The translations under genes and the position numbers were made by a program. Source: Candidatus Saccharicenans subterraneus (GTDB lineage: Bacteria > Acidobacteriota > Aminicenantia > Aminicenantales > Saccharicenantaceae). From it: a stretch of 64,000 bases of DNA. The stretch spans positions 124,001 through 188,000 of the forward strand of contig QUAH01000005.1 in assembly GCA_003426165.1 (NCBI GenBank), in the 5' to 3' direction. Shown here one piece after another: positions 46,958 through 59,053 of this stretch. Numbering within the stretch: position 1 is the first letter of the stretch; each line of letters opens with the position of its first letter. Under the pieces are notes generated by a model that searched no databases, was not told the DNA's origin, and saw only the letters and a program-made list of their open reading frames with translations.

Positions 46958-47144
46958 CAGTCCTCCTTCTTATTTCCGGTTAGATTAATTATACGGATAA
47001 AAACTCACCTGGTTCTGACGAAATCAGTTAAAAAAAATTCCAGGCCATCCGGAAATAAAATTAATTTCAATCTATTTTCATTGTCCGAGCTTCTTATCTT
47101 ATAATGGACACCGAACCGAAGTAAATCAAAAATTGGAGGTCCGC

Positions 47145-50100
47145 ATGTTCAGGCCGCAAAAAGATTCAGGCTTATTATTCCGGCGGATAAGAATCGCCTC
47201 GGTCCGGGTGGTTGTTTGCTGTCTTTTTCTATTCATATTCCTTCTGCCGTCACCGGTTTACTCGCAGCAACCGGACCAGATGGCCGACTACCTGAATAAA
47301 TTTATCACCTGGAGAAACATCGGCCCGGCCGTTCCCGGAGGCCGGACGGTGGACCTTGACGTGGTGGAAAGAAAGCCCTGGATCATCTACGCGGCCGTCG
47401 GTCCCGGCGGCCTCTGGAAGTCAGAAAATAACGGTGTTAGCTGGGCGCCGGTCTTCCAGCGTGAAGCCACGGTCTCGGTGGGAGCGGTGGCCGTGGCCCA
47501 GTCCGCGCCGGAGGTGGTCTGGGTGGGAACCGGGGAAAGCACCAGCCGGAATTCGGTCACCCTCGGAGACGGGGTTTACCGGTCAACCGACGGGGGTAAG
47601 ACCTGGAAGAACATGGGGCTCAAGGATACCAGGCACATCAGCCGGATTATCATCAGCCGGGGCGATCCCAACATCGTTTACGTGGCGGCCATGGGCCACC
47701 TCTGGGGGCCCAACTCTGAGCGGGGAATCTACAAGACCATAGACGGGGGTGCGACCTGGAAGAAAATTCTATATGTTAATGAAAATACAGGATTTAGCGA
47801 CTTGGACATTGACCCTGAAAATTCTCAGGTTCTCTATGCGGCCGCCTACGAGCACCGCCGGTGGCCCTACCGAATGGTCAGCGGCGGACCGGGCAGTGGC
47901 ATTTATAGATCCACCGATGGCGGCTTGACCTGGACCAGGCTTAAGCAGGACCTCCCGGAAGGAATAATGGGGCGGATAGGCCTGGCCGTGGCCAGGAACA
48001 GGCCGGGAGTGGTCTATGCCCTGATTGAACACCAGGACCCGGGCATCTGGCGCTCTGAAGATTACGGCCAGACCTGGAAAAGAACCTGCGACGCCAAGAC
48101 CTATAAAAACGTAAACAACCGACCTTTTTATTACAGCCATATCTATGTTGACCCGAACGATGACCGGACCATCTACGTCCAATCAACAGGGCTTTACGTT
48201 TCCAACGACATGGGCCAGAAATTCCGGGCGATAGGGCAGGGGACTCATCCCGACCACCACGCCCTGTGGATTGACCCGGCCAACCCGCTGCACCTTATAG
48301 ACGGCAATGACGGTGGAATCGATATTACTTACGACGGCGGGAAAACCTGGCTTCCGGTAACCAGCATCGATGCGGCCGAGGTTTACCAGGTGGGCTTTGA
48401 TTACAGCGTGCCCTACAGGGTCTATTGCGGACTCCAGGATAATGGCTGCTGGGGCGGGCCCTCCCATTCGCTGGACAGCCGGGGTATCCTTAATGAGCAC
48501 TGGGAATTCATCAACGGGGGAGACGGTTTTTTTGTCAGGCCGGACCCAAAAAATAGCTTTGTAGTCTATTGCAACTCCCAGAACAACGGCCTGATCAGGA
48601 AAGACCTAAGGCACGGCCTGGGTAAGGGCGTCAGGCCCGAAGCCTCGCTGAATGAGCCCCCTTACCGGTTCAACTGGAACGCACCGATAATGATCTCGCC
48701 CCACGACAGTAACACGGTGTATTGCGCCGGGAACTTCCTGTTCAGGTCAAAAGACGGGGGCTATACCTGGGAGAAAATCAGCCCGGACCTGACCACCAAC
48801 GACCCGGCCAAGCAGGTTGACGGCGTGGGTCCCATAACAGTCGAAAACAGCGGGGCCGAGGTTCACTGCACCATCACCGCCATAGCCGAATCGCCCGTCC
48901 AGGCCGGGGTTCTTTGGTGCGGAACGGATGATGGCAATTTGCAGATTTCCCGGGATGGCGGCCAGACCTGGACCAATGTTATCAGAAACATCCCCGGGCT
49001 TCCCAAGAATTCCTGGTGTTCCAGGGTGGAGGCTTCTCATTTTGAGGCGGGGACAGCCTACGTTGCCTTCGACAACCACCGCAGTGATGATTATTCCCCA
49101 TATGTTTATAAGACCACTGATTTCGGCAAGACCTGGAAATCCCTGCGTTCCAACCTGCCGGATTTCGGATGGATACATGTGGTCAGAGAGCACCCGGAAA
49201 ACAGGAATTTACTGTTTGTTGGAACAGAGTTCGGAATTTATGCAGCTTATAACTCTGGGTTAAGTTGGATAAAAATTCATGGCTCAAATTTACCCACAGT
49301 TGCCGTGCATGATATAGCCATTCATCCCAGGGAAAATGACCTGATCATAGGAACCCATGGTCGAGGCATCTGGATCCTGGATGATATCTGTTATTTGAGC
49401 CAGCTCAGCCAGGAAGTATTTAATTCAGATTTCTATCTTTTTAAGCCCAGGCCGGCCTACCTGTTTTTTAATTCGGGCCGGGGTGATATTTATTCAACTT
49501 TTGGATTCAGGGCTAACAATCCGCCAGCCGGGGCAGGCCTGACTTATTTTGTCAGAAAAGACCTGAGTGGAGATTTAAGAATCACCATTACCTCCGGTGA
49601 TCAAGAACCGATAATTGAACTGTCTCTTCAGAAGAAAGCCGGGCTCAACCGGACGTACTGGAACTTGCAGTTCATGCCCAAAACCGGCGGGGGAGAAAGG
49701 CCCCAGATGACTGGCATTATGAGCGTTATGTGTAACATAACTCCTGGAGAATACGATGTAATTATAAAAATAGGGGAAAAAGAATATAAGTCCAGAATAA
49801 AGGTCCTGCCAGATCCAAGGTTTGAGCTTAACCCGGCAGAACTTCAAAGCCAGTATCAGGTCGTAGCCGAGCTGGCCAAGACCAATAACCTTTATGCCAG
49901 GGCTGCGGCTGCAGCCAGAAACATTTCCAGGGATTTGGAAAAGATAGCTGGCGAAATCAGCACCATTAAAGACGAGGGAACCAGAAAACAAGCCCAGGAT
50001 CAATACAGGAAGTTCATGGACTCATTCAACGCCGTGTCCGAAATTTTCCAGACTGAAGGGACGCTGGTCGGGCTTTCTATTCCTTACCAGAAATTCCTTC

Positions 50101-50333
50101 GGGGTCCTTTGAATATCCGACTTATTACGCTAATTCAGGGCATTGCCGGTTATCCATCAGCGCCAACGACCACTGAATTAAAGCAGGCCGAAGAAGTCAA
50201 CCTCATGGTCCGCGATTCAATTCAGAAATTAAATGAATTCATTAAAAAAGACCTTGATGAATTTAACCACTTCCTCGAAGTGAACAAACTAACGGCGATC
50301 AAGAAACCAGAATTAATCAGCCTGGATAACTGA
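47145..50333 (+). CDS. Large exported Asp-box (BNR/VPS10-like) beta-propeller protein
   Basis: 1062 residues from the ATG at 47145, which has GGAGG five bases upstream. A signal peptide covers about residues 10-38 (VVVCCLFLFIFLL). At least nine Asp-box repeats of the S-x-D-x-G-x-x-W type follow (STDGGKTW, TIDGGATW, SEDYGQTW, SKDGGYTW and others), forming VPS10/sialidase-like propellers over about residues 45-740. The last 320 residues are a beta region plus a helical, coiled-coil-like end. Such proteins are common in protein- and glycan-degrading bacteria and are often labelled glycosyl hydrolase without proof. No sialidase arginine triad is evident. A likely surface binding or scaffold role is inferred. 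Confidence 0.82.
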   Translation: MFRPQKDSGLLFRRIRIASVRVVVCCLFLFIFLLPSPVYSQQPDQMADYLNKFITWRNIGPAVPGGRTVDLDVVERKPWIIYAAVGPGGLWKSENNGVSWAPVFQREATVSVGAVAVAQSAPEVVWVGTGESTSRNSVTLGDGVYRSTDGGKTWKNMGLKDTRHISRIIISRGDPNIVYVAAMGHLWGPNSERGIYKTIDGGATWKKILYVNENTGFSDLDIDPENSQVLYAAAYEHRRWPYRMVSGGPGSGIYRSTDGGLTWTRLKQDLPEGIMGRIGLAVARNRPGVVYALIEHQDPGIWRSEDYGQTWKRTCDAKTYKNVNNRPFYYSHIYVDPNDDRTIYVQSTGLYVSNDMGQKFRAIGQGTHPDHHALWIDPANPLHLIDGNDGGIDITYDGGKTWLPVTSIDAAEVYQVGFDYSVPYRVYCGLQDNGCWGGPSHSLDSRGILNEHWEFINGGDGFFVRPDPKNSFVVYCNSQNNGLIRKDLRHGLGKGVRPEASLNEPPYRFNWNAPIMISPHDSNTVYCAGNFLFRSKDGGYTWEKISPDLTTNDPAKQVDGVGPITVENSGAEVHCTITAIAESPVQAGVLWCGTDDGNLQISRDGGQTWTNVIRNIPGLPKNSWCSRVEASHFEAGTAYVAFDNHRSDDYSPYVYKTTDFGKTWKSLRSNLPDFGWIHVVREHPENRNLLFVGTEFGIYAAYNSGLSWIKIHGSNLPTVAVHDIAIHPRENDLIIGTHGRGIWILDDICYLSQLSQEVFNSDFYLFKPRPAYLFFNSGRGDIYSTFGFRANNPPAGAGLTYFVRKDLSGDLRITITSGDQEPIIELSLQKKAGLNRTYWNLQFMPKTGGGERPQMTGIMSVMCNITPGEYDVIIKIGEKEYKSRIKVLPDPRFELNPAELQSQYQVVAELAKTNNLYARAAAAARNISRDLEKIAGEISTIKDEGTRKQAQDQYRKFMDSFNAVSEIFQTEGTLVGLSIPYQKFLRGPLNIRLITLIQGIAGYPSAPTTTELKQAEEVNLMVRDSIQKLNEFIKKDLDEFNHFLEVNKLTAIKKPELISLDN

Positions 50334-52135: not shown

Positions 52136-53073
52136 GCCGCGCTATAGTCTCTATCCGTTTCCGATATATTAGTTTACATAATATAACTTATGCGACACCA
52201 TATATCCTTGTCTCCTATCTCCTTTATAATCAATTTTTTACCAGCCTGTTAAATCTGTGGATATCTCTTCTGCCGGGTTTTTGGGCAACTGTGAAAATCT
52301 CGGTTCTTCTCATCATAGATGGTCGACTAAATATGTGGAATTATTCTTTTATTCAAGCTCTTTTATGAGCCAACTTTTTTTAATATTAGCGTTATAAAAT
52401 TCGTATTAATGTGGGCTAATTTATCAAGTTTTCTTAGGCTTAATAAGCCAGATGGCTCCGAGTATATTTTTAAGAAAATTTTTTTCTTGGCCGGGAGGCC
52501 AATTAATAATGGTCTTATTGTCTTATATATTGGCCAAGATCCTCTTAATTTTATAATTTTTTAGCTCCGGCAGTTATGTAATATGTCCAACCTGTCATTG
52601 ACCACATTGGCGCTAATGGACGTACTCCGATCTTAGTCAACCCTAGTTTGGTCTAGCTTCCAGGATGCTGGCGTCACATATCCCGGAATCGGGCATAAAT
52701 CCTACAAGATATAGCTTTTTAGTTACATGTATAGGAATCTGATCATAAATGACTGGAACAACTGATTTATTCCAGAATGCCTTAGATTAAGATTAAGAAG
52801 GGTCATTATTTATCAGCGGCCAAGCTCCCCTGCCAATAACAGAATTAAATAAAAAACCAGCCATAAAAGAGATGTATTTCATGATAATAAAAGCCTGAGC
52901 GAAATCATGATGCCAAAACCATCTAAATTATTTAATAACAATAGGTTAGCCGGAATAATTCTATATATTATTCAAAATCAATAATATACACACAAACCGG
53001 TCCTTTTGAGCTCAGGCTAACTAAATAAGAGGGTTAAGAAATCCTTTCCGCTATATTTCTCTCCCTCCATATG
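52136..53073. other. AT-rich stretch without an intact gene
   Basis: Nearly 940 bases of much lower GC than the flanks. An uninterrupted but startless 65-codon frame lies on the minus strand at 52363-52560 (contains WPIYKTIRPLLIGLPAKKK); no family was recognised. Other frames are short. One DnaA-box-like TGTGGATAT lies near 52256, which is not enough to call an origin. It looks like decayed coding DNA. Confidence 0.5.
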
Positions 53074-53298
53074 CTAACACTGCCGGCTACCGGTTAATCT
53101 AATCATATCATAGAACCCCACGGGGCTCCGGTAGCCAGGGACCGAATGAACATAGAGCCAGTTGAAATCCTCTCTAATCCTCGAGTCTATTACTGATACC
53201 CCCGCAGTTCTTTGCGACCGACCATTGCCGGCTGAGTGCCCCCAGCACAATAGCCATCTGCTATCATCATCATCCCCTATCCACTTCCTTGGTTTCAC
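53074..53298 (-). pseudogene. Probable IS3-type transposase C-terminal remnant
   Basis: A 74-codon frame on the minus strand. Its end, with VHSVPGYRSPVGFYD, resembles the R-x-H-S-x-L-G-Y-x-S-P-x-x-F ending of IS3-family OrfB transposases. The catalytic DDE residues are absent and the upstream part does not continue in frame. The GC content is higher than its surroundings, as expected of an inserted piece. The match is short, so the call is tentative. Confidence 0.35.
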
Positions 53299-53401
53299 CC
53301 TTTAGCCTCTCGAATAGAGTATTAACTATAACTCTCAGCGGTTACCCAGTTAAAATTATTTGCCTCCTAATGTGGTCGGTATACTCTTAAGTTCTATAAC
53401 T

Positions 53402-53571
53402 TCCCGGAGGCAAACAAACGACGCCTCTCATCCATTAACATGCTGGAAAGGACCAACGGGGAGATAAGGAAGAGGAGCCGGGCGGTGGGAGTGTTTCCTC
53501 GGGTGGGCTCATACCTCAGGCTGATCGCCCCGCACCTCATAGAACATACTGAAAACCGGGCCAACAAGTAG
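53402..53571 (+). pseudogene. IS256-type transposase C-terminal remnant
   Basis: The frame reads FPEANKRRLSSINMLERTNG and then EIRKRSRAVGVFP, LRLIAPHLIEHTENRANK and stop. This matches the C-terminus of IS256-family transposases (FPEAH-x-RLRTTN-x-LERLN-x-EI-x-RRTRVVGIFP). Only about 56 codons survive and the DDE core upstream is missing, so the element is dead. It marks the left flank of the AT-rich cassette. Confidence 0.75.
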
Positions 53572-53633
53572 GCCTATACATCGGGCCAGAGCAGTTCAGT
53601 CAGGTATTAGAAAGTTCATTGGCTCAGAACGCA

Positions 53634-53694
53634 AACTGAGGCTTAAAATGGAGAGAGCACGATGGCCAAATCGCGAACAAAACTTGACATGGCC
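53634..53694 (+). repeat. Island direct repeat, left copy
   Basis: 61 bases beginning AACTGAGGCTTAAAATGGAG. It matches 57546-57611 with about five mismatches and one five-base indel, in the same orientation. It includes a short frame starting MAKSRTKL. It lies between the IS256 remnant and the end of the propeller gene. Confidence 0.8.
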
Positions 53695-53816
53695 ACTTCA
53701 AACAAAAGGAGGCGAATCGGATGAATAGTTCATCATATGGGACAAAGCAAGCCACTCTGATGGGAAAAAGGTGCGCGACAATATATCTCTTAAAAAGGAA
53801 ACAGTAAGTGAATTAC

Positions 53817-54947
53817 TTATCTGTTATATAAAAGTTTATATTTTAATAATTTTGGATAATCTTCTTTATGTATTACCATAGCGTAAAAATGATCATCCTT
53901 ATCGACAAGAGTCTGGTATACATATTCTCCTTTATTAAGCTCTGCTATTTTATCTAACAACTTATATCTTGTGATCAGGTTCAATTGCACATCATAAATA
54001 TCAAAATAAAAAATACTTTCCTCGGGATTTAAGAATGGGACAATAATTTTATTATCATTTTTAATGTTTACATCAAGGAGAATCCAACTTACATCAGGAG
54101 GATAAGTTATAATACTTGTTCCGAAATTATCAACTTTATATTCCACATTTTGATAAGTATTAAAATCAACTTTACCCATCACATCATTTATTATATCCCC
54201 TTTAATATTATATTTAATAAGACGGTAGGGATAACCCTGTGAATAAATAAATTCACTCTTACTTATACCAACTATTTTTGCAAAACTTACATCACCGTAA
54301 TAATAGCGCCACGGTTCAGGCATAGGGAGCTGGCTTATCTGCTTCAGGATACCAACTGCAGGCTCAATAAAGATTCCAAACTCGGCATCAATTTTCCCGA
54401 GCGAGCGGGAAACATGAATTGGCTTATGGTTTTCTTTTAGAATGATACTCGAAAGATAATAGGTCTTATTCAATAACTCAATATCGTTATACCAGGCCGA
54501 CGTTTTCGCCGAATACAAAAATTTCCCATCCTGGTCATAAACATTTATTCTCCGCTGTGGATTATCTATCACATAGATATTCCCATCAGACAGGATTTTT
54601 ATTTTGACTGCATCACCCGATAGTTCGCCCGGCCCTTGCCCCCGTCTCGCAAAGCTAAACAAGAAACTTCCTTCTTTGGAAAAACACAGAATCCTACTGT
54701 TACCCGAATCCAATATATAGATCTGCCCATTCCCGCCCACTGCAAATGTTGGGAGCTTATAAAAATCTTCGTTTGGCTTATCTGAGCCGATTTTTAATAC
54801 AAATTCAGCCCTGATTTGATATTCTTTTGGCTTACTATCATCAGGAGTAAGAACAATTGGCGTACTTGCCAGAGCACATTTGTTAAGTTGTTCCCCCAAT
54901 AGAATAAATAAAAATAAGCATAGATAGATAAACCTTTTTTTCCACAC
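53817..54947 (-). CDS. Exported six-bladed beta-propeller (NHL-like) protein
   Basis: 376 residues starting from GTG with GAGGTG seven bases upstream. A signal peptide covers about residues 4-28 (IYLCLFLFILLGEQ). Repeated blades of the NHL type follow, for example NGQIYILDSGNSRILCFSKE and DGNIYVIDNPQRRINVYDQDG. This matches the 6-bladed beta-propeller (BF3164-like) group found beside small exported peptides in Bacteroidetes-type genomes. No catalytic residues could be identified. It is the last gene of the AraC-MauE-peptide-propeller cassette and is 92 bases after the peptide gene. DNA composition is strongly AT-rich. Confidence 0.75.
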   Translation of the reverse strand: MWKKRFIYLCLFLFILLGEQLNKCALASTPIVLTPDDSKPKEYQIRAEFVLKIGSDKPNEDFYKLPTFAVGGNGQIYILDSGNSRILCFSKEGSFLFSFARRGQGPGELSGDAVKIKILSDGNIYVIDNPQRRINVYDQDGKFLYSAKTSAWYNDIELLNKTYYLSSIILKENHKPIHVSRSLGKIDAEFGIFIEPAVGILKQISQLPMPEPWRYYYGDVSFAKIVGISKSEFIYSQGYPYRLIKYNIKGDIINDVMGKVDFNTYQNVEYKVDNFGTSIITYPPDVSWILLDVNIKNDNKIIVPFLNPEESIFYFDIYDVQLNLITRYKLLDKIAELNKGEYVYQTLVDKDDHFYAMVIHKEDYPKLLKYKLLYNR

Positions 54948-55039
54948 CGCAACACCTCTTTCAAACTTTGATGAATGATGTCAGATATGCGCTTTTTCTT
55001 TCATCTATCCTCAAAAAATAATGTTATCTCTCATAGAAA

Positions 55040-55270
55040 TTAATATTGTTTGTGTACACAGCAAAGCCAGTGACCAAGGCTGCATGGATTCGCATTGCAA
55101 AAACACCCTCCGGGGCCATCATACATTGTACACCCGACGTTTGGCTTGCAATAATAACATGCTTCCCAGCAATGGCAGCTGTTCGGAATAACCTGGGCTA
55201 ATAAAAACCCGACTGTCAATATCAGGCTGCATGCAAGTAAAAATAATACCAACACTTTCCCCTTTTGCAT
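55040..55270 (-). CDS. Small secreted peptide with ten cysteines
   Basis: 76 residues with a perfect AGGAGG before the ATG. A basic start and hydrophobic core (6-24) form a signal peptide, with probable cleavage after A25 (FLLA-QV). The mature part of about 50 residues has cysteines at 32, 34, 38, 41, 47, 56, 58, 63, 70 and 71, so up to five disulfides or a metal-binding fold. It has two tryptophans (W35, W68) and three histidines. A possible lipobox at C14 is less likely because the hydrophobic run continues past it. No family was recognised. Immediately upstream is a MauE/thioredoxin fusion that could form its disulfides. Confidence 0.75.
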   Translation of the reverse strand: MQKGKVLVLFLLACSLILTVGFLLAQVIPNSCHCWEACYYCKPNVGCTMYDGPGGCFCNANPCSLGHWLCCVHKQY

Positions 55271-55351
55271 TTTATCCTCCTAATAAAGAGCTATATTTAA
55301 TGAATTTAAATTTTGGGCAACTATCTCAAGCAAGATAACCACCTCCTTTCT

Positions 55352-56431
55352 TTATTTTAGATAACTTAACAAGACTTTTTCATATTCATCCCGGAAGTTT
55401 TTTATATTGAAGCTTATTGGATCTACCCTTAATATTTTACCTTCTGGAGAAACGAGTAATATGAGGCTCTTATATCTTGATAATATATTAGAGCCTAACA
55501 ATACGGGGTCCTCTACGAATGGGTATGTAATTCCATATTCGTTCCTAAAATTATAAATCGCTGTTTTACTGATTTTCGGGACTATGGCACAGAAGTAAGC
55601 TTTTCCTCCATACTTAAAATTAAGATATTCAAGATAAGCCGACTCTTGAGCACAACTTCCACACTCCAATGTGTGGAGAGTTAATAATACAATAATATTA
55701 ATATCAGGATGTCTTGGAAATTCAATATTAGAAGAGATAGACTTTATGTCAGATCCTATTAAAGAGACAGCATCTGGCTTGTTTAGTTCTTTAATAATTT
55801 TATCCCTTTCTCCTGATACAACCGATATATACTTGGCTTCGTAAGAACGCTTCCCCATAAACGTTAATAAACAGAGAATGAGATACACGGCAATAAATAT
55901 CGACAGTGGGAAAATGGCTTGGCTCAAAAAAGAATATTGAGCTTTTTTATTAGAATAAAATCGCTTATCTAAATATATAGAAGCCGATAGTGCCATAAGC
56001 AGGTAGTTGATCGTTAACAAGACAAAAGGATTGGCCTGCTTATAGAAGACCAATTCAGATAAGAATCCGCAGGTTTGACAATTTCCTTTCCAAGCATTTA
56101 GAAGATTCGAGACTACAAAAACGACCAATATTATTGATATAGTCAAACTTACGTACCTTGACAGATAACCGGATATTAATAATGCACCAAGAATCAATTG
56201 TGCCCAGGGAAGTGTTGAGATCACAAGACGGCCAAATGAATTTGATAGAAAATTATAGGAATTAATTATTTTTCTAAATAAATCAGGATTCATTATGTTA
56301 TGCAGGGCAGAATAAATAAATACGATTCCGACTACAAGCCGAAATATATAGAACAAAATCAAATCTTTTTTGTCTTGAATCAAGTTGAAATTCGGCTTCG
56401 CTACGAGCCTTTTCGAGTGCCCTTTGCCCAT
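55352..56431 (-). CDS. MauE/DoxX-type membrane protein fused to thioredoxin-like domain
   Basis: 359 residues. Five membrane segments (about 24-44, 68-90, 94-113, 134-153, 170-190) form a MauE/DoxX-like core with a C118-x-x-C121 pair (GNCQTCG) in a loop. An extracytoplasmic thioredoxin-like domain follows (about 220-359) with C257-G-S-C260. This combination moves electrons between the membrane and periplasmic thiols; MauE and MauD do this separately for methylamine dehydrogenase. It is placed directly upstream of the ten-cysteine peptide, which is a natural substrate. The ribosome site is AAGGGG. Codon use is AT-rich like its neighbours. Confidence 0.8.
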   Translation of the reverse strand: MGKGHSKRLVAKPNFNLIQDKKDLILFYIFRLVVGIVFIYSALHNIMNPDLFRKIINSYNFLSNSFGRLVISTLPWAQLILGALLISGYLSRYVSLTISIILVVFVVSNLLNAWKGNCQTCGFLSELVFYKQANPFVLLTINYLLMALSASIYLDKRFYSNKKAQYSFLSQAIFPLSIFIAVYLILCLLTFMGKRSYEAKYISVVSGERDKIIKELNKPDAVSLIGSDIKSISSNIEFPRHPDINIIVLLTLHTLECGSCAQESAYLEYLNFKYGGKAYFCAIVPKISKTAIYNFRNEYGITYPFVEDPVLLGSNILSRYKSLILLVSPEGKILRVDPISFNIKNFRDEYEKVLLSYLK

Positions 56432-56505
56432 TTTTCCCCTTTTGTTGTTTATTAAATATTAGGAATAAAAACAGTTCTTGTTTTTTTTTATTTTTGTCTT
56501 TTTTA

Positions 56506-56979
56506 CTATTTATTCGTCTTTTTTGCCCTCAATAACAGGCAAAGCTGAGATACATCTCTACCAAGAGCTTCTGCAAGCTTGATGTTATTAGAAAGGTAGA
56601 AATAGGATTTCTTCCTTAAAACACATGTTTCTGGATTAAGATTACAATTCCTGAACTTCTTGGGCGTACACCCAAAATGTTTCTTGAATTGCTTTATAAA
56701 ATTTGAAACATCATCAAAGCCACACCAGAAAAGCACATCAGTTTCTGAAAGTTTTTGGTCTGATCTGAGCAGAAAGCCAGCTTCATAAAGTCTCTTAATA
56801 ATCAGGAATTTTTTAACCGGAATCCCAACTTCTTGCTTGAATATTGTCTCGGCTCGTGACGCGCTCAAATTGGCTGCCCGGAAAACCATTTCATGGAGGG
56901 AAACATTTTTGGCGTAATTCGCGTCAACATAACCAATGATTTTCCATACCCTCGCCGAAAATAATACCTTTCCATGCAT
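56506..56979 (-). CDS. AraC-type transcriptional regulator, short
   Basis: 157 residues from the ATG at 56979. An open frame extends to 57033, but a strong promoter at 57012-57040 covers that stretch, so the ATG downstream of it is chosen. An AraC double HTH covers about residues 12-110: NVSLHEMVFRAANLSASRAE, FKQEVGIPVKKFLIIKRL, then DVLFWCGFDDVSNFIKQFKK and HFGCTPKKFRN. No effector-binding domain precedes it; a tail of about 45 residues follows. It is the first gene of the cassette, 74 bases before the MauE-like gene, and may control its own operon. Confidence 0.82.
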   Translation of the reverse strand: MHGKVLFSARVWKIIGYVDANYAKNVSLHEMVFRAANLSASRAETIFKQEVGIPVKKFLIIKRLYEAGFLLRSDQKLSETDVLFWCGFDDVSNFIKQFKKHFGCTPKKFRNCNLNPETCVLRKKSYFYLSNNIKLAEALGRDVSQLCLLLRAKKTNK

Positions 56980-57011
56980 AAGAAAACTAACCCTTTGCTT
57001 TCCCCAAAAAT

Positions 57012-57040
57012 AAATTATTTTGGCGTCCCGCAAAAGTCAA
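57012..57040 (-). promoter_or_regulatory. Promoter of the AraC-MauE-peptide-propeller cassette
   Basis: Minus strand TTGACT (57035-57040), a 17-base spacer and TAATTT (57012-57017). It is placed correctly for the AraC gene at 56979 and is the best promoter seen for the whole cassette. Confidence 0.5.
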
Positions 57041-57175
57041 GTCTCTTTTTCTTTCCGGTTAAGACATAGTATCCAGCCTTAGGGGTCTTTATGGAAGCGG
57101 CGTGGTGGCAGTCCGGTGATAGGGGTTGGGGTAGAGGAAGCGGGGAGATTTATAAGGTTGGTACTTGAAAAAGCG

Positions 57176-57229
57176 GGGCTTCCTCCCTTAAAAGTTTTGT
57201 TAAAACTTTTAATGGAAAGGAGGAAACCC
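57176..57229 (+). repeat. Long imperfect hairpin ahead of the transposase remnant
   Basis: Outer arms GGGCTTCCTCC/GGAGGAAACCC and inner arms AAAAGTTTT/AAAACTTTT around a GTT loop. The right outer arm contains the GGAGG (57219-57223) of the transposase remnant at 57238, so the folded RNA would hide its ribosome site. Confidence 0.6.
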
Positions 57230-57237
57230 ACCCACCA

Positions 57238-57551
57238 ATGACGAGTAATATATATCCTACTTACCAGGAGATTGGCAAGAGTGCGCCGGTACTGGTCAGG
57301 AAGTTCGTGGTCAAGGCCTATGAGGAGAGGGGGAATATCTCTGAGGTAGCCAGGCTGTTTAGGACCACCAGGAAGAGGGTCCGGAAGGTGCTGAGGAGGT
57401 GGAAGGAAGGCGGGGAGGAATGGCTTAAGGATCTGTCCCGGAGGCCAAACGCTCACCGCGGAGGACCTCAGCGGCCGTGGAGGCGATGATAGTGTCCGAG
57501 AGGAAGAAGATCGGCTACGGCCGGCATCATAATACCTATGCTGCCAACTAA
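57238..57551 (+). pseudogene. Broken IS481-like transposase N-terminus
   Basis: The first frame starts MTSNIYPTYQEIGK and reads an HTH domain typical of IS481/IS3-group transposases (GNISEVARLFRTTRKRVRKV, EEWLKDLSRRP). It then shifts: the expected continuation (SPRRTSAAVEAMIVSERKKI, GYGRHH) lies in another frame from about 57445 and stops at 57551. The DDE catalytic part is missing. So it is both frameshifted and truncated. It sits at the right flank of the AT-rich cassette, next to the right copy of the direct repeat. Confidence 0.7.
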
Positions 57552-57611
57552 GGCTTAAATTAAAATGGAGAGATCACGATGGCCAAATCGCGAACGAAAC
57601 TTAACCTGGCC
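57546..57611 (+). repeat. Island direct repeat, right copy
   Basis: 66 bases beginning AACTAAGGCTTAAATTAAAA, matching 53634-53694 in direct orientation. It follows directly on the truncated transposase. The 160 bases after it, up to the end of rho, show no gene. Confidence 0.8.
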
Positions 57612-57772
57612 GAGGAGACTAAAAAACTATATACCTTTTGCCCTGAAAAAAGGGGAAATTGTGTCTGGCCAGCGGCCCAAAATGGAATGCGGGGGCCAAA
57701 AATCAGCCAGGCAAACTAACCCGGTCATATAAAACTGGACCTTTTCGACACAATAGCCCGGCTGGCTCACGC

Positions 57773-59053
57773 CTACAGGCCCTTGCTCATGGCATCCAGG
57801 AAGTCACTGTTGGTCTTGGTCTTGGAGAGTTTTTCCAGCAACAGTTCCATGGCTTCCACTTCGTTAAGCTGGCTGAGAATCTTGCGCAGAATCCAGACGC
57901 GGTTCAGGTCCTTGTCTCCGATCAGCAGCTCTTCCTTTCTGGTTCCGGAACGGCTGATATCAATGGCCGGGAAGATTCTCTTGTCAACCAGGCGACGGTC
58001 AAGGTTTATCTCCATGTTGCCCGTGCCCTTGAACTCTTCGAAAATGACATCATCCATGCGGCTTCCGGTATCCACCAGGGCCGTGGCCACTATGGTCAGG
58101 CTGCCGCCTTCTTCGATCTTTCGGGCCGAGCCGAAGAATTTCTTGGGCTTGTTCAGGGCATTGGCATCGATACCGCCTGAAAGTACCTTGCCCGAGGGCG
58201 GGACAATGGCGTTATGGGCCCTGGCCAGCCTGGTGATGGAATCGAGCAGGATGACCACGTCGCGCTTTAATTCGACCAGCCTCTTGGCCTTTTCCAGGAC
58301 GATGTTGGCCACCTGGACGTTTCGGGTTGGCGGCTCGTCGAAGGTCGAGGCCACCACCTCGCCGTTAACGCTTCTTTTGAAATCGGTAACTTCTTCCGGC
58401 CTTTCTGCCACCAGCAATACTATCAGGAATATCTCGGGATGGTTCTTTTCGATGGACTTGGCAATGGTCTTGAGCAGGGTGGTCTTGCCGGCCCGGGGCG
58501 GGGAAACGATCAGGCCCCTCTGCCCCTTCCCTATCGGGGTCAGCAGCTCCATGACCCTGGCATTCATATTCTTCGGGTTTCCGTCCTGGAGCTTTATGAG
58601 TTCAAAGGGATAAACCGGGGTCAGCTGTTCGAACTGGACGTTTCGCCTGGCTTCCAGGACCACGTCGGGATGCAGGAAATTTATGGCTTCTATCTTGATC
58701 AGGGCAAAATATTTTTCTCCGTTCTTGGGGGGTCTGACCACGCCAGAAATGGTGTCTCCGGTCCGGAGCTGGAACTTGCGGATCTGGGAGGGCGACACAT
58801 ATATATCGTCCGGGCTGGGCAGATAGCTGAACTCCGGGGCCCGCAGGAAGCCAAACCCGTCTTCCAGGCATTCCAGGACGCCCTCGGAAAACAGCAGACC
58901 CTGCTTCTTGGCCTGGGCCTCCAGGATCTTGAAGATCAGGTGGTGCCGGCTGGAATTTTCGATGTCCTCTTCTTCCAGCCCGAGGGAGTTGGCAATTTTC
59001 TTCAGACCGGACAGTTCCTTTTCTTCCAGGTCGATCAGACTGTATTCTTTCAT
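57773..59053 (-). CDS. rho: Transcription termination factor Rho
   Basis: 426 residues, normal length without a large N-terminal insert. The N-terminal helix and cold-shock-like RNA-binding domain contain [20 protein letters not shown]. The Walker A SPPRAGKT lies at 184-191, and [32 protein letters not shown] (Q- and R-loop region) and [14 protein letters not shown] at the end are standard. It is a hexameric RNA-dependent ATPase. It is 91 bases downstream of lon; that gap holds competing hairpins. The AT-rich island begins right after its end. Confidence 0.96.

Follow-up and report, generated by a model that had tools for sequence, protein, structure and literature searches.

The parB-rho cassette and its proteins

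A window of 64,000 nucleotides from Candidatus Saccharicenans subterraneus (contig QUAH01000005.1, positions 124,001 to 188,000; coordinates given without a locus name refer to this window) contains a compact cassette of four open reading frames (ORFs) on the minus strand, which encode an AraC-family regulator, a MauE membrane protein fused to a CxxC domain, a 76-residue cysteine-rich peptide and a propeller, in this order. The cassette spans positions 53817 to 57033, with gaps of 74, 81 and 92 nt between its genes, and all comparisons of AraC, fusion and propeller that yielded a ratio of nonsynonymous to synonymous substitutions (dN/dS) gave values of 0.13-0.34, i.e. purifying selection. An original prediction had described four AT-rich minus-strand genes in this arrangement. 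Indeed, ORF reading and Pfam place the genes where they had been called, and the G+C content is 35.1% (0.351) as against 55.4% (0.554) in the rest of the window, the lowest of any block of this size in it. The cassette has no PHROGs or PADLOC match at E ≤ 0.01, and a phage or defence origin was rejected on this ground.

The fusion protein (359 residues; 55352-56431) matches MauE (PF07291) over residues 25-151 (55979-56359) with an E-value of 4.5e-14 and 53.3 bits, above the gathering score of 27 bits, as well as DoxX (8.3e-7) and, weakly, HvfX (0.077). A structural model is confident for residues 21-110 (mean predicted local distance difference test score, pLDDT, 89-97) and weaker beyond, so that the MauE/DoxX core stands as predicted and its five transmembrane helices are plausible from the model. 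Where other aligned MauE proteins carry the motif C-G-C-F-G, which was not found in the fusion, it has C118-Q-T-C121-G-F, and one cysteine of the pair aligns. The outer half (residues 206-359; 55355-55816) contains the expected CxxC (C257-G-S-C260). Its similarity to thioredoxin-like proteins is limited to weak matches with Redoxin (0.085) and ResA (0.026) and a profile comparison with the TlpA-like proteins described below (probability 44.6, E 2.3e-4); most of this half is modelled at a pLDDT below 60, and a Foldseek search with the fusion model returned a best E of 0.17 and nothing at E ≤ 0.001. Among 99 relatives searched, close homologues of the fusion occur at two loci, both in genome G037, and both precede a cysteine-rich peptide and a propeller, which is the co-occurrence that the original prediction called for; against pieces of a G037 copy the fusion shows dN/dS values of 0.21 and 0.25. 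Separately, a lone MauE gene adjoins a PF17170-type propeller at locus L014 (1486-3292), where a cysteine-rich peptide was not found.

The predicted exported propeller (53817-54947; GTG start preceded by AGAGG) matches PF17170/DUF5128 (3.8e-10, 39.9 bits, gathering score 22.9 bits) and NHL (1.3e-6), in agreement with the six blades assigned to it. NHL chains in the PDB match it with E-values down to 1.2e-25, a profile built from the propellers of 19 relatives covers its residues 3-373, and its dN/dS is 0.13-0.19. Fragments of such propellers lie on several contigs of G037, many of them at contig ends. In three genomes, close relatives of the window propeller have a protein combining a propeller with TPR as neighbour (L047 1935-3485, L061 1-1368, L079 1-1449).

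The AraC-family regulator (56506-57033; dN/dS 0.34) consists of the DNA-binding domain, with Pfam matches to HTH_18 (2.8e-16) and HTH_AraC and none to an effector domain, just as had been proposed. Its ORF opens at TTG, and judged by start context the ATG at codon 19 is the likelier start. A 94% identical copy of the regulator lies on contig C12 of the same genome. A good promoter in front of the four genes was not recovered: the promoter scan gave 13 sites in the region with 13.1 expected and listed none upstream of AraC. By eye we found TTGACT-17 nt-TAATTT (8 of 12 positions; 57010-57050), which the scan did not find and which overlaps the TTG start.

The ten-cysteine peptide, its homologues and the insertion

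The peptide gene (55040-55270) starts with an ATG preceded by a Shine-Dalgarno-like AGGAGG. Reading the ORF bears out a 76-residue peptide with 11 cysteines, ten of which lie past the hydrophobic N-terminus, at positions 32, 34, 38, 41, 47, 56, 58, 63, 70 and 71. It has no Pfam match at E ≤ 1, and such peptide families are therefore likely missed in annotation. Homologues were found in G037 (two), G028 and G055, i.e. five sequences from four genomes including that of the window; a scan of genome contigs confirmed four loci, all of them already known from these three genomes, and two further matches in G016 are weak (E 0.002 and 0.007). In an even draw of 396 genomes of the phylum, three, the window genome among them, carry the peptide. 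Ten mature cysteines are present in four of the five sequences, and the fifth, on contig C13 of G037, has eight before it decays and leaves the frame. The aligned cysteine frame is common to all five at 39-48% identity, while the remaining residues vary, so the frame proved to be conserved in relatives. Together with dN/dS values of 0.28, 0.27 and 0.15 against three homologues (the last two with saturated dS, above 2), these homologues in three other genomes argue against a fortuitous reading frame.

In Bacteroidetes, NVEALA peptides adjoin PF17170/DUF5128 propellers, and the original prediction had drawn this parallel. The propeller family and the small exported neighbour are indeed the same; however, the NVEALA family PF14055 matches neither the peptide (E ≤ 1) nor the genome (E ≤ 0.01), which leaves the parallel without sequence support, and we rejected kinship of the peptide with NVEALA. 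In one control genome, Bacteroides ihuae, PF14055 and PF17170 both match, and their adjacency was not seen there.

How much of the cassette accompanies the peptide elsewhere? Contig C8 of G037 holds the end of a fusion, a peptide and a broken propeller in cassette order. Contig C13 holds AraC, fusion, peptide and propeller, all visibly broken save the first part of the peptide. In G055 peptide and propeller are adjacent on a contig that starts just before the peptide. Next to the decayed C8 copy, the opposing strand encodes a radical SAM protein (PF04055; L048 1508-2308), possibly by chance.

In the window, the cassette sits in an insert (52298-57773) between parB and rho, and its neighbours by Pfam are parA, parB, rho and lon. 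The gap between parB and rho is 5.5 kb here, whereas it measures 0.8-1.1 kb and is free of an insert in all five relatives fetched (G009, G012, G004, G015 and G010, with rho identities of 97, 96, 90, 89 and 89%). A 52-nt direct repeat flanks the cassette (left copy 53643-53694, 92% identical; right copy 57560-57611). It has 13 matches in the window genome, eight each in G009 and G037, four in G017 and one in G012, and was not found in G018, G028 or G055. As the repeat is multicopy in this genome and its relatives, we interpret the surroundings of the cassette as the remains of mobile elements. Transposase-like remnants lie at 57238-57489 (HTH_28 by Pfam) and 53394-53567, the latter of which resembles an IS256-type C-terminus. 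Beyond the insert, positions 47133-50333 encode a 1066-residue exported protein rich in WxxP/DGG-type repeats, which by eye could be a sortilin/BNR-like propeller.

A paralogous locus on contig C12 of the same genome (L003 7077-8907) retains AraC at 96% DNA identity to the window copy (contig C18). There, a single ORF joins the propeller directly to residues 1-26 of the fusion, and the body of the fusion and the peptide are gone. The propellers of the two copies form a mosaic, with blocks at 96-98% and at 61-82% identity, which beside an AraC at 96% points to recombination among copies. The homology of the window, C12 and G037 copies starts at nearly the same base, at the promoter-like stretch. 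The multicopy repeat ends and the mosaic paralogue could suggest that the four genes have nothing to do with one another and are debris left among dead transposons. This explanation is very improbable and is already contradicted by the conserved gene order, which is kept at about 50% divergence on C8 of G037; purifying selection likewise speaks against it, as does the finding that the same three functions turn up again at other loci.

Peptide, propeller and thioredoxin loci in relatives

Is the association of an exported cysteine-rich peptide with such a propeller a common arrangement in relatives? To answer this question, we surveyed 39 regions, representing 42 of the 44 best PF17170 matches from 24 relatives, and L126, which was added because its peptide had already been seen. 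Peptides were called by a rule (45-130 residues, an N-terminus that is hydrophobic and includes a basic residue, four or more cysteines after residue 20). The rule matched 17 ORFs in the 40 regions as compared with two in 288 kb of control stretches, some of which overlap one another, and with an average of 1.6 (range 0-4) over 20 shuffles. One candidate, at L119, was dropped, as it lies on the strand opposite its propeller, which leaves 15 peptides in 39 regions, or 16 with L126. All 16 share the strand of the propeller; in nine, the end falls between 121 nt upstream of the propeller ORF and 21 nt within it, and several come immediately after it. Their cysteine frameworks fall into a twin C-x6-C group (nine sequences, four invariant cysteines), a group with eight or nine cysteines and single cases. 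A conserved family of 215-225 residues follows the propeller and the 8-9-cysteine peptide at L092 (1456-2133), L095 (3345-3989) and L104 (1457-2113); its L092 member has no Pfam match.

The nine twin C-x6-C loci have the order peptide, propeller, TlpA/ResA-like protein, with an ABC (ATP-binding cassette) ATPase near. The CxxC is kept in all ten aligned TlpA-like proteins, which as a set match StoA (1e-10) and ResA (1e-8) in the PDB. By Pfam, AhpC-TSA accounts for 10 of 49 same-strand neighbours at peptide loci (15 of the 16, without L121 and with L126) and for no more than 1 of 50 at non-peptide loci (21 of 24, three having no eligible ORF), the latter being an upper bound because AhpC-TSA is not among the families listed there. 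This is a cleaner contrast than that given by the TlpA profile, which finds 10/16 peptide loci and 1/24 others and is partly circular, having been built from ten peptide loci. An ABC transporter is present at 9/16 peptide loci and 1/24 others, as judged by a model based on four of these nine. This pattern of co-occurrence suggests that the thioredoxin is tied to the peptide and that the propeller is the common partner.

Starting from the peptide gives the same association. A twin C-x6-C profile search of the 396 genomes returned 24 matches in 20 genomes, with a same-strand propeller beside 22 of them and a TlpA-like gene at 20; without the six loci that built the query, the counts are 16/18 and 14/18. 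Two loci (L167, L173) have neither neighbour and two (L166, L170) the propeller only. Contig C7 of the window genome (L175 7610-8085) carries two tandem twin C-x6-C peptides, followed by propeller and thioredoxin, and similar tandem pairs occur at L176 and L177. The ten-cysteine and twin C-x6-C profiles match with a probability of 13.6, mostly in the signal region, and kinship between the two families was rejected accordingly. By the definition applied here, an exported cysteine-rich peptide with an adjacent same-strand PF17170 propeller and a CxxC redox protein, the window cassette is such a module, and it seems to represent a rare form that has the MauE-CxxC fusion in place of the thioredoxin.

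The peptides are very unlike between loci, their distribution is patchy, the cassette is tied to mobile elements and many peptide loci encode a GldA/DrrA/lantibiotic-protection-like ATPase. These features are consistent with bacteriocins or intercellular signals that would be folded by the thioredoxin or fusion, with the ABC transporter giving immunity. However, no ABC transporter is found among the proteins of the window cassette, the peptides have Sec-type signals and not leader peptides, and the lack of PADLOC and PHROGs matches likewise counts against this explanation. To our knowledge, a stable propeller partner is also atypical of bacteriocin loci. We consider such a function improbable.

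The cysteines could also bind metal. In bufferin clusters, the core comprises exported cysteine-rich peptides with signal sequences and DoxX genes (PMC12452194), and the ten clustered cysteines and the DoxX and HvfX matches of the fusion would suit a copper or zinc buffer whose thiols the fusion keeps reduced for metal loading, with the propeller as holder. Here, however, a propeller and a CxxC domain are part of the cassette, and neither MNIO (DUF692) nor DUF2063 was found in its proteins, nor MNIO in the five neighbouring window ORFs scanned, the genome itself not having been searched for MNIO. Moreover, the twin C-x6-C peptides with their thioredoxins resemble disulfide-bonded helical hairpins rather than metal sites. 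A metal-binding role is thus conceivable for the peptide, if unlikely.

Proposed disulfide maturation of an exported peptide

Our favoured explanation, at a probability of roughly 55%, is that a Sec-exported peptide has its cysteines set by an oxidoreductase dedicated to this task and is bound by the propeller, and that the cassette represents an intact copy, gained by horizontal transfer, of a module recurring in Aminicenantia. Gene order, conservation, recurrence and co-occurrence are observed. In the most probable course, AraC would control transcription of the cassette, its presumed target, and the peptide would be exported by Sec with removal of its signal sequence. The fusion, with the cysteine pair C118/C121 of its MauE part and the outer C257/C260, would relay electrons from the membrane to the peptide or in reverse and thereby form or correct peptide disulfides, and the folded peptide would be held by the propeller for whatever final role it may have. 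The original prediction had left a choice between peptide maturation and peptide export. Maturation by the redox protein is the best reading, while export by the cassette itself is unlikely because the peptides have Sec-type signal sequences.

Several observations weigh against this interpretation. The thioredoxin fold of the outer half of the fusion, indicated by weak matches and a poor model, is not established, and the AlphaFold model of the peptide from five sequences is not usable (pLDDT 56.7). Between G055 and G028 the dN/dS of the peptide rises to 0.61. In G028 the peptide stands alone, with propeller, fusion and AraC not found nearby, both G037 copies are decayed, and the C12 paralogue keeps AraC and propeller without fusion and peptide. 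The nearest relatives of the window propeller have a peptide at none of the five loci scanned, and 17 further propeller loci have one in a single case (L068). Two of the 24 loci found from the peptide side lack a propeller. Kinship between the ten-cysteine and twin C-x6-C peptides is not convincing, so that the modules could be analogous, and the surveyed regions, which come from related genomes, are not independent.

How does the cassette relate to known systems? The maturation of methylamine dehydrogenase by MauE and MauD, which serve its small subunit, was reportedly described by van der Palen and colleagues in 1997, work that is cited in PMC7794033. Features shared with the cassette are a MauE-type membrane protein and a putatively thioredoxin-like CxxC partner, next to a propeller and a small exported protein rich in cysteine. 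This could mean that propeller and peptide are two subunits of an enzyme, corresponding to heavy and light chain, with the fusion as a combined MauE-MauD; the MauE match of the fusion and a weak MauD match of the L114 thioredoxin (0.049) agree with this. However, tryptophan is absent from the invariant columns of the five aligned peptides, so that they offer neither the tryptophan pair of the light chain nor a tryptophan-derived cofactor, and the peptides at other loci have no common core. In addition, both activities reside here in one chain, the cassette contains no other mau gene, the propeller is of the NHL/PF17170 type and the MauE motif is altered. Without the conserved tryptophan, and with another propeller family and this altered motif, the cassette is not a member of the methylamine dehydrogenase system, and we give an enzyme of this kind very little credence.

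The nearest report that we found concerns Streptomyces families detected by decRiPPter, three of which contain mauE and one also mauD, with precursors of at least eight cysteines and an inferred precursor modification (PMC7794033). They belong to another phylum, and the portion of that report describing them presents no module of exported peptide, TlpA and ABC transporter and mentions no propeller; the role of MauE in methylamine dehydrogenase is put there as speculation. NHLRC2 likewise links a thioredoxin-like fold to an NHL propeller (PMC6107167), yet within one eukaryotic protein and without a peptide. The open-licence papers searched yielded no description of a peptide-propeller-redox module and no paper naming PF17170, DUF5128 or NVEALA.

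In a wider and more tentative view, for which we see some grounds while holding it to be rather doubtful, the loci would represent a lineage-wide secreted mini-protein system that has not been described before. In many Aminicenantia genomes, exported cysteine-rich peptides particular to each locus, with ten cysteines, eight or nine cysteines, twin C-x6-C or other frameworks, would be paired with a cognate NHL propeller, acting as their specific receptor or chaperone, and with a CxxC oxidoreductase of their own; an ABC transporter would be added at some loci. The peptide would be replaced or diversified against an unchanging machinery, and the window would show that horizontal transfer of the unit also occurs, here with MauE for its redox engine.

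Of greater value than the window cassette alone is the module found in related genomes. If our interpretation holds, it would provide small model substrates for MauE. It would also open a first way into the function of some of the very common PF17170 propellers, through a testable partner, the peptide, and a testable chemistry, the setting of disulfides by a MauE or TlpA protein dedicated to it.

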